The position numbers were made by a program, and so were the translations under genes. Positions 27,516 to 31,677 of a stretch of 64,000 nucleotides of DNA are shown piece after piece; positions within the stretch are counted from its first letter, which is position 1; each line of letters starts with the position of its first letter. The stretch covers positions 1,612,001 to 1,676,000 of the forward strand of contig CM073201.1 in the NCBI GenBank assembly GCA_037042915.1, written 5' to 3'. The notes under the pieces were generated by a model. It saw nothing but the letters and a program-made list of their open reading frames with translations. It made no database searches and was not told where the DNA came from. The stretch comes from Auricularia sp. M13 (lineage: Eukaryota > Basidiomycota > Agaricomycetes > Auriculariales > Auriculariaceae).

Positions 27516-30040
27516 ATGCCTGGCGCGTCAGACGATGGCCCTGTTCTCTTTAGCTCTCAACCACTGCCAGGATGGGAGCCTACCCAGCGACCTACGCGCG
27601 CGCAGACTCCGGAGGAGAAGGAGGACGAGGAGTTCATACCCTGGCCGCCGTCGCCAGAGAAGCCGCCCTCTGAACTGGAGAAGAAACGTCGACTGTTGCG
27701 CGAAATTGAGGAGGCCATGCGCGAACGCGTCAAGACTAGCACCCAACTGCTCGCGGACCAGTCCTATCTTACACCAGCCCCGCCTCCCGCAGTGGGCCGC
27801 AAGCCCGCGCCAAAGCCTGCACCACGGCCCATACCAAAGCCAGCGGTCAAGCCAGCGGTCAAGTCTACGCCAGAGGAGCGTGCCCGGAGACTCAAGCTGA
27901 TAGAAGAAGCTATGGCGGCCGACGATGCGCCTCCACTTCCAGCTGCACCCCCCAAGCCGCTGTCGAGCTCGCGTGGTACAAAGCGACCATCCGACGCGTC
28001 TTTGAAGGACGAAAACGCTCAACCTTCGCGCGCGCCGGAAGAGCCCAAGCCCAAGAAGTCGCGACGCACGAATCCGTTCGCTGAACAGCAGCAAGACGCG
28101 CCTGTCGCTGTGCCCCGGGCTACACCCGCGCCGGAATTGCCGTTGACAAAGCCAGACTCCAAGTTGAACATACGACAGAAGGTCGCGCTCAGTGACGAGC
28201 AGCAGCACGTGTTGCAGCTGGTTCTCCAGGGCAAAAGTGTTTTCTTCACCGGTTCGGCAGGTGCGCTTTTAGCTCGTCCGTCTACGTCTCCAAAGCTCGC
28301 TGAACCACGTGCGTTTAGGAACCGGAAAGTCTGTTCTGTTGCGCGAGATTATACGGTCTCTGAAACTCAAATATAACAAAGCCATTGACGCTGTTGCCGT
28401 GACAGCCAGTACTGGCATTGCCGCTTGCAATGTTGGCGGTGTAACGCTGCATTCGTTCGCTGGTTTTGGTCTGGGCACGGGAACCGTCGAGCAGCTCGTC
28501 AAGTATGTAAAGCGGAACAAGAAGACCGTGCAGAAGTGGACGCGGACTAAGGTTTTAATCATTGACGAGAGTGAGCGATTTGCTTCCAGTTTTTCCTCCT
28601 ACTTGACAATCATGTGCAGTATCTATGGTAGACGGAGAGTTATTCGACAAAATCGTTCGTATAGCTCGCATCATGCGCAAGAATCCGAACGGCATGGGCG
28701 GGATGCAGGTATTCTCGTCTTTCTTCTTGCTTGGTGCCCACTCACTCACATGCATCTATCTAGCTCGTCGTCACAGGCGACTTCTTCCAGCTTCCGCCTG
28801 TTGCCAAGGGCGGGTCCAACATGGTCTTTGCTTTCGACGCGGAAACCTGGAACGAGGTCATTGATCATACATTCAACCTGACCAAAGTGTTCCGACAGAA
28901 AGACCAAAGTGCGTGGGCGCATTTTCCAGCTGACATGAAGCATTTCTCTGACCTACCCATAGCGTTCGTTACTATGCTGAATGAGATGCGCTTTGGGACG
29001 CTTTCCCCGGACAGCATCAAGCGCTTCCGAGACCTTGCACGCAAGATCGACTGGGGCGACGGCATTGAGCCCACCGAGCTGTGAGCCTGCTGCCAGGAGT
29101 TTGGTTCTCCCTTGCTGAATAGGCGCTAGCTTTCCGCTCCGGGCGAATGTTGATAACGCCAACATGCAGCGTTTACAGGCGCTCCCAGGCAACGTCGTCT
29201 TGTTTACCGCCATGGATGGCGGCTCGCTCCAAGACGCTACACAGCGCGAGAAGATGCTGGCCAATTTCATGGCGCCGAAGGAGCTCAGTCTGAAGCTCAA
29301 TTGTCAGGTGCGCTGTACCGCTTGCATTCATACGCCAATGTGCCTCATCGAGTTATAGGTTATGCTCATCAAGAACACGGATGAGACCCTCGTCAATGGG
29401 TCAATGGGTAAGGTCATCGCCTTCCGGACGCCGGCTGAGCACCACACCATCGTGACTGGCACACCGATTGAAGAGGGCGGCGATACTGCCAAGAAGAATG
29501 TAAACAAGGGAAAGGTCTATCCGCTTGTCCGTTTCAGCGTTTTCGATGCGATGCACAACAAAACGTTGTACCGCGATGTACTCGTCCAACCGGACTCATG
29601 GAAGGTCGAAGGCCCGAGCGGCGAGGTGGTTGTCTCACGCACCCAGGTACGCTTCAGTTGCCCTCGCCCCGCTGCGCGCTCATCTGCGCAGATCCCCTTG
29701 ATTCTCGCGTGGGCCATGTCCATTCACAAATCTCAAGGTCAGACACTGGATCGTGTCCGGGTCGACCTCGGCAAGGTCTTCGAGAAAGGTGCGTGCTGCT
29801 GCTGATCCTTTTTTTTTCACGTTTTGATGCTGTTGGCCATCCGCAGGTCAGGCATATGTTGCCCTGTCCCGCGCTACTAGTCTACAAGGACTGCAAGTGC
29901 AACACTTTGATCCAGCTCGAGTGGGTGCACTTGACATAGTCGCGACGATGCTTCTGACGTGCTCCTCGCATCAGGTCATGGCTCACCCCCGAGTGATCGA
30001 GTGGTCGGCCACTCTGGAGACCATGCCTGAACGAGAATGA
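27516..30040 (+). CDS. PIF1: PIF1-family DNA helicase
   Basis: Ten exons: 27516-28260, 28319-28570, 28620-28708, 28764-28908, 28963-29080, 29130-29307, 29359-29646, 29692-29788, 29847-29920 and 29975-30040, encoding 683 residues with all phases consistent. PIF1 is a 5'-3' DNA helicase acting at telomeres, G-quadruplexes, replication forks and mitochondrial DNA. Walker A is [17 protein letters not shown], split by the first intron. Further motifs are [37 protein letters not shown] (Walker B), [27 protein letters not shown] and [17 protein letters not shown]. The N-terminal 230 residues are Pro/Lys-rich with a [20 protein letters not shown] repeat and no clear domain. It is unclear whether a second start would give a mitochondrial form. 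Confidence 0.95.
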
Positions 30041-31162
30041 GTCTGTCTTGCAAACACCTTTCATCACTCACTGCTTTGACCGCCAGCAATGTATCGTTAT
30101 TAAGACCTGCACTCGTCACGCTTTCCTTGCTACTTGTTTCTGTGCAAATCTCATCCTTTTTTGGTCGCAGGTTCTAGTTCTACATCATCTCATCCTTAGG
30201 CTTTGACTGGGCGATAAACTTGGAACAAGCTGCAAACGACGTCGCGCTGAATCTGTATGTGGAAGGAAGGACATGACAGGGTGCCTATCAGTTGCCAAAA
30301 ACAGCCCCTAATTTCAACCGCAAGTGCAGCCGCAAAGCGGGTGTCAGGATGTGCGACTGCCCGGCGGCTTCGTCTCTGCGAATCCAGAAGCCATTGGACT
30401 TGCGCTCGCCGTGCAACTGGGCGAACCCGCCCTCATTTACGCCACCGTGCTTCCATCGGCATGGCTCCCGTATCGCTCGCACTGGTAGCCCCATGGCGTG
30501 GTTGGCCTTTAAAAGCTGTTTTGGCCTAAATCTGGGCACTTTCACCCGCGACTCGGGCTTTCCGCGCAGGCATCCTAGCAGGAGCTGCTCTCGTGCGCTT
30601 GCTAAGTTACTTCAGATGACTGCGGCGCGAAGATGGCATCGCGAGGCATCAACAATTATTTTGGTTCGCACAAGCGAAGATATATGGGCAACTACAAGAA
30701 GCCGTGGGGCCCTCGCTATGGTCTACTGTGAGTTCACCTGACGTCAGTGACTAGCGCTACGCTCAGCGCGCAGCGCGTGATGTTTTACTGTGACGGATGG
30801 GGAGATGGAGAACTAGGCAGACGCCCGGTACTGATTATGCATGGATACTACCCAAGAGGATCGTGCTGAACGCTCAGACCTGCCAGTAAAATATGTCTGC
30901 GGTGTTGAGGTTCAGGAACAAGCATCGCCGATCAGCTTCTAATATGAGTACAAATCGAAAAGCTTTCGCTCAAGTTCCTGGTGCGAGCCACGAAAGATCA
31001 ATGATACGGTACGACTGACGTGCTACTAGTCTGTGGGTCAGATGACCCATTCAAGGCACAGCTCTCTGTGCGTGTATCTGTGCAGTGAGGAGTGCAATAC
31101 AAGGTCAGAAGCAGAATTGAGCTGAGTCGGGAACGGTTGCAATCGGCGGTTCCTGTAGGAGT

Positions 31163-31170
31163 ACAGCCTG
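31163..31170. repeat. Target-site duplication, left copy
   Basis: ACAGCCTG lies immediately outside the left inverted repeat of the MITE. The identical 8 bases follow the right end at 31670-31677. Eight-base duplications are characteristic of hAT transposition. Confidence 0.8.
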
Positions 31171-31669
31171 CAAGGGGGCACCGGGATCAAAATCCCGGAA
31201 CCAAACCTATGTAGGTAGGTCGCAGCCCGGAGGGCTGCGAACGTAACTGGAGTCCCATATACTCGGCTTGCCGAGCCGCTCTGGACGGATTTTTTCATCA
31301 AAATGCACCTTTCTGCACTATTTTTCCTGAAAGAGAGCCTCAAAACAGGTCTATACGTCAGTCCCGGCTGTCTGAACCACATCCAGGCCCTTTCCATGAG
31401 CTGGAGTGGGTAGAGTACACTGAAAACTAATGAAAGATGTTGTATTGCAACAAAGTATATCTGTTGAGAGTGCCTTTTAAGCTTTTCAACCTGTCTTACA
31501 TTGATCACAAGGAGTTTCTTTACTGAAGTCGGAACTAGTTTGCTTCCGGCTCCGCGGAAGGCCTTCCCAAAATGGGAATATCTTCCCACGGTAGGTAGGT
31601 AGGTCGGCCTCGCCAGCTTCCCAGCGTAAACCGACCCGGTTCCGTCATTTTGCTTCCGGTGCCCCCTTG
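31171..31669. mobile_element. hAT-like MITE (non-autonomous DNA transposon), 499 bp
   Basis: The two ends form an imperfect terminal inverted repeat of 32 bp, 31171-31202 against the complement of 31638-31669, with 28 of 32 positions equal. It starts CAAGGGGGCACCGG and ends CGGAACC. Perfect 8-bp direct repeats flank it. There is no transposase, so it would need one in trans. Inside the left end are three short perfect hairpins: 31181-31198 (7-bp stem), 31221-31239 (8-bp stem) and 31262-31275 (6-bp stem). Near both ends are GTAGGTAGGT repeats in the same orientation, and TTTGCTTCCGG occurs twice near the right end. An 8-bp duplication and a CAAGG terminus point to the hAT superfamily. The open frame on the - strand across it is not believed coding. 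Confidence 0.8.
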
Positions 31670-31677
31670 ACAGCCTG
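31670..31677. repeat. Target-site duplication, right copy
   Basis: ACAGCCTG directly after the right end of the MITE, identical to 31163-31170. Confidence 0.8.

Follow-up and report, generated by a model that had tools for sequence, protein, structure and literature searches.

Introduction

The P element of Drosophila makes an 8-base-pair (bp) target duplication, has 31-bp inverted ends and encodes a transposase with an RNase H domain split by an insertion domain and with the DDE triad and D(2)H (PMC7776569, PMC8230255; structure 6p5a). In Anopheles gambiae, miniature inverted-repeat transposable elements (MITEs) of 205-2450 bp agree with a P master at their ends, over a total of 114-198 bp, and have an unrelated interior and perfect 8-bp duplications, the masters being 4178-7545 bp long (PMC1562414), and the rust fungi have the P elements P-1_PSt, P-1_MLP and P-2_MLP and the non-autonomous P-N1_MLP and P-N2_MLP, with 8-bp duplications (PMC3164196), all as given in the parts of these accounts drawn on here. 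Here we describe a 499-bp element at positions 31171-31669 of a 64,000-nucleotide stretch of Auricularia sp. M13 (contig CM073201.1, positions 1,612,001-1,676,000; hereafter the window), flanked by ACAGCCTG at 31163-31170 and 31670-31677. Its sequence and the modelled fold of a related transposase make it very probably a P-superfamily MITE mobilised in trans by a P-element-type transposase, and not the hAT-like MITE that an earlier note on this DNA had proposed.

Compared with the Anopheles P-MITEs as they are described in the cited part, the 499-bp MITE is alike in its P-derived ends, unrelated interior and 8-bp duplications, but differs in its fungal host, its ends (CAAGGGGGCACCGG), a transposase-bearing partner element without a THAP domain by Pfam, and the length in common with that partner (~134 bp). 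Its likeness to the rust elements, in fungal host, 8-bp duplications and the existence of non-autonomous forms, is one of published description (again in part), not of sequence. Since rust fungi already have P elements with non-autonomous forms, the 499-bp MITE adds a new family to an established kind of element, and that family may perhaps already be catalogued. Of the accounts drawn on (PMC12730594, PMC7776569, PMC8230255, PMC6416283, PMC1562414, PMC3164196 and PMC3942097), PMC3164196 is the only one that describes fungal P elements.

The element and its copies

The features of the element, in window coordinates, are:

31163..31170, no strand: left copy of the 8-bp target site duplication, ACAGCCTG, identical to 31670-31677
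31171..31669, + strand: 499-bp MITE, probably P-type; 16 genome copies, ends in common with C11:1932034-1937906
31171..31202, + strand: left terminal inverted repeat, 32 bp, starting CAAGGGGGCACCGG; 28/32 against the right end
31171..31221, + strand: left 51 bp in common with the transposase-bearing element, 94% (DNA comparison)
31181..31198, + strand: hairpin CCGGGAT-4-ATCCCGG, 7-bp stem, within the left end; the partner has the same at the equal place
31220..31240, + strand: hairpin, 9-bp stem
31262..31275, + strand: hairpin, 5-bp stem CTCGG-4-CCGAG, read directly from the sequence
31589..31669, + strand: right 81 bp in common with the transposase-bearing element, 88% (DNA comparison)
31638..31669, - strand: right terminal inverted repeat, 32 bp; 28/32 against the left end
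31670..31677, no strand: right copy of the 8-bp target site duplication, identical to the left copy

The length, the 32-bp ends agreeing at 28 of 32 positions and the perfect duplication are exactly, coordinates included, as the earlier note gave them, and its three left-end hairpins and repeated subterminal words (GTAGGTAGGT, in direct orientation near both ends) were also recovered. Nine stems of at least 6 bp are listed in the element, several of them being the same stem in nested form; shuffled sequence gave a mean of 0.98 and at most 5. That it has no transposase likewise holds: no coding region is evident among the listed open reading frames (ORFs) of at least 100 amino acids, the only one over the MITE (31038-31589, minus strand, 183 amino acids) extending into the flank. 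When the window was scanned for pairs of identical 8-mers that lie 108-2000 bp from each other and enclose 32-bp inverted ends with at least 24 matches, the pair around the MITE was the sole one found. No such pair occurred in 20 versions of the window shuffled by 1-kb blocks, and on this result a chance origin of ends and duplication was rejected.

The genome searched (52.1 Mb in 14 contigs, the window included) holds 33 DNA matches to the MITE, 16 of them copies of complete or almost complete length. The lengths by script are 499 bp for 14, 498 for one and 453 for one, the last (L009, which has lost its terminal base) becoming 498 once that base is considered. All 16 have a perfect 8-bp duplication, 15 directly and one after allowing for the lost G, and all the duplications are different. 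There are two subfamilies, 84-86% alike: in one, L001-L008 are 97.8-100% identical to each other and L009, L010 and L011 are more diverged members (lowest pair 89.8%), and in the other L012-L016 are 98.8-99.4% identical. L003 and L004 are the same in sequence at separate places with unlike duplications, indicating recent movement. Changes of C to T or G to A against the group majority account for 31 of the 81 changes in the first ten copies and for 6 of the 13 in L012-L016, so there is no flood of such changes.

One copy, L006, sits in a dispersed repeat, and a second copy of that repeat beside L013 provides an empty site that is paralogous, not orthologous. The alignment there crosses the junction with GGACGGCC present once and just a single-base gap nearby, and scores 344; an alignment in which the duplication is retained twice needs a 7-bp gap and scores 332. 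The repeat itself, which flanks L006 and L013, is rich in GACGGCCGTC-like words and took one MITE insertion. Together the 16 copies, their perfect duplications and the paralogous empty site support what the earlier note had suggested, a non-autonomous, multi-copy MITE with an intact target duplication and a fairly recent insertion; the further copies with different duplications that it had proposed seeking are thus present in the genome. The copy L005 (C10:1444381-1444879) is, by eye, nested in a different CAAGGG-ended element, within the terminal region of the latter.

A transposase-bearing partner

Matches to the left and right ends of the MITE lie on contig C11 in the same orientation, 5.87 kb apart, and together delimit an element of 5,873 bp (C11:1932034-1937906) that has GGTTGATC on both sides. 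The MITE and this partner agree over 51 bp at 94% on the left and 81-83 bp at 88% on the right, and on the + strand the left end of the MITE corresponds to the partner end upstream of the transposase gene. The MITE interior has no match in the partner at expectation values (E) up to 1. An exact search for the 14-bp terminus CAAGGGGGCACCGG found 33 genome sites, of which 30 are on the 16 MITEs, two on the 5,873-bp element and one on a broken relative, and the reversed 14-mer found none; the search covered exact matches, ends with mismatches not being sought. One strand of the partner carries long open frames, separated by the intron signals GTAAGT...AG and GTATGT...AG.

A probable P-type transposase

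Searches of the same genome found at least 15 loci of the partner's transposase family, and one fragment. The six loci at which both ends were seen, the partner included, all start CAAGGGG, with a perfect 8-bp duplication at five, and a further three each show one CAAGGGG end. Pfam gave no transposase family for the four main partner ORFs at E up to 1. Among 21 aligned pieces of the family, no Pfam family was matched by more than one piece except PF21787 (the N-terminal RNase H of P transposases), which seven matched, with a best E of 0.012; across the whole genome PF21787 matches at three places, all within these transposases and none over the cut-off. The alignment carries the signature M-x-D, D-G, D-x-K-H, D-R-L-E, that is, a DDE triad with D(2)H after the second D. 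The predicted fold aligns with 401 of the 442 residues of the P structure 6p5a, over a range spanning the insertion domain, the comparison giving 21.3 for P as against 7.0 for Hermes. On this prediction the partner transposase has the P-type fold, a split RNase H with a helical insertion domain. Because the sole transposase-bearing element with the exact 14-bp terminus has this predicted fold and catalytic signature, and because its relatives give a Pfam signal that is weak yet specific, we assign the 499-bp MITE to P.

The family resembles Drosophila P in its 8-bp duplication, inverted ends, predicted split RNase H with insertion domain and DDE with D(2)H, but is unlike it in its sequence (12% identity in the structural alignment), in having no THAP found, and in an extra C-terminal barrel of the predicted fold and a cysteine-rich region recognised by eye.

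Several observations weigh against the assignment. The PF21787 matches score 12-18 bits against a curated cut-off of 24.6; the first two catalytic aspartates are 119 and 134 residues apart in two relatives, against 70-73 in animal P; the fold models are middling (mean predicted local distance difference test scores of 69.8 and 61.2), the better being a relative's, and the partner's own ORF stretch contains just the second half of the catalytic domain. Pfam found no THAP domain in the ORFs scanned. Of the transposase loci, C9:1183059-1188035 has both ends seen without a matching duplication, and 6 of 15 are not delimited at all. A THAP search of the genome gave no match, but its control matched nowhere either and the N-terminal exons are uncertain; in the cited part of one account THAP is stated to be absent from fungi (PMC7776569). 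A phmmer search for a solved relative gave no match, and in a profile search the sole match was a lipase (E 2.8), which was not useful.

Apart from the partner, one P-type element is present in three copies (C11:23753-28729, a C11 copy with one end at 2426012, and C9:1183059-1188035), 99.4-99.9% identical where compared, with a 932-amino-acid open frame and inverted ends of ~130 bp.

Proposed mobilisation and target preference

In the proposed mechanism the transposase would come from the 5,873-bp element, or from a close relative unseen in the assembly, and would recognise the CAAGGGGGCACCGG inverted ends with the adjoining 50-80 bp. It would excise the element and join it to the target at two positions separated by 8 bp, and repair would leave the 8-bp duplication. 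The sequence itself shows the copies, their ends and duplications, one empty site and an element that has these ends and encodes a transposase, whose fold is predicted; that the partner protein is expressed, binds the MITE ends and has moved the MITE copies is what we infer. By analogy with Drosophila P, GTP may be the cofactor.

The targets were compared over 33 duplications, 16 from the 499-bp MITE, ten from a second MITE family, one from a third, five from transposase-bearing elements and one from a nested copy. A G in first or a C in last place occurs at 33 of 66 ends, where 17.9 would be expected from flanking DNA. The Drosophila P target likewise starts with G and ends with C.

Alternative explanations

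That the 5,873-bp element itself moved the MITE in trans is the step that we infer, and a closer master unseen in the assembly is a fair alternative to it. More broadly, the MITE could be P-type and yet have been cross-mobilised by a lost or different P-type transposase, which we regard as possible though rather unlikely: a single element was found with the exact terminus, the MITE ends differ from its ends by 6-12%, the MITE falls into two subfamilies, and further P-type elements and MITEs with CAAGGGG ends are present in the genome, but no transposase element seen other than that of 5,873 bp has the full 14-bp terminus.

It is improbable that the transposase belongs to a sister superfamily close to P, or to KDZ/Zisupton, instead of P proper. 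The similarity to the P profile below its cut-off and the missing THAP would suit such a placement, and Zisupton likewise makes 8-bp duplications in the cited part of its description (PMC12730594), but the fold match extends over nearly all of the P structure, insertion domain included, the 21 pieces gave no KDZ match in Pfam at E up to 10, and basidiomycete rusts have P elements already reported in the part of PMC3164196 cited.

A hAT MITE, moved by a hAT transposase of the same genome, is very improbable indeed. The 499-bp MITE is like hAT MITEs in its 8-bp duplications, short inverted ends and non-coding interior, its CAAGG terminus is compatible with hAT, the hAT dimerisation domain has 21 matches in the genome and the copy L004 starts 199 bp past a hAT domain fragment; but the 8-bp duplication is common to hAT and P and so is not diagnostic between them, and unlike hAT MITEs this one has no hAT transposase found with its ends. 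The autonomous hAT with the same ends that the earlier note had suggested looking for did not emerge, every one of the exact terminal sites lying on the MITEs, the P-type element or the broken relative (mismatched ends not sought); neither the partner's ORFs nor the 21 pieces match hAT, the 21 Dimer_Tnp_hAT matches being at other places; and Hermes falls far under P in the fold comparison. The hAT target bias, T at the second and A at the seventh position, is not seen (15/62 for each, from 31 duplications in both orientations).

Implications

An 8-bp duplication with a CAAGG end can mislead, the family here being very probably P and not hAT, and short elements so marked and filed as hAT therefore merit a second look. 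The candidate master, two MITE subfamilies, paralogous empty site and delimited relatives with differing ends form a natural set for the study of master-MITE pairing in the P superfamily outside animals. They also provide a lead, that some P transposases may carry other DNA- or chromatin-binding domains replacing THAP. As a speculation that we consider unlikely, this genome would hold a large, diversified P branch without THAP, ending in a Tudor/chromo-barrel/BAH-like fold and a cysteine-rich region; if the barrel reads histone marks, transposases and MITEs might be guided to chromatin states. We know of no such targeting for P elements.

Neighbouring genes and other MITEs

The MITE is flanked on one side by the 3' part of a PIF1-type helicase gene and on the other by sequence encoding a DUF3712 domain. 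The PIF1-like gene, upstream, occupies window positions 28309-30040 (extent by eye), with PF05970 matched at E 8.5e-17 on 28309-28878.

A second MITE family (L021-L030, e.g. L024:1039-1540) consists of elements 494-514 bp long whose ends are CAAGGGGACCCA / CAAGGGGACACC, and all 10 of these loci have 8-bp duplications; a genome search gave 17 full-query matches at 70-100% identity, and L020, a weaker match, has no duplication by script. Its master was not found at C8:1172717-1178949 (L080:118-6350), the place looked at, which is instead a copy of this MITE, with duplication CCGCGCGT, holding a long retrotransposon-like insert; its one uninterrupted frame of 1543 amino acids is Copia-like by eye, no family search having been made. 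A third MITE-like element, of 505 bp (L031:1066-1570, C11:1931065-1931569), with ends CAAGGGGTGTCC and duplication CCTTATAC, is separated by 464 bp from the P element of 5,873 bp and has ends similar to those of the P-type element C9:117587-123812.
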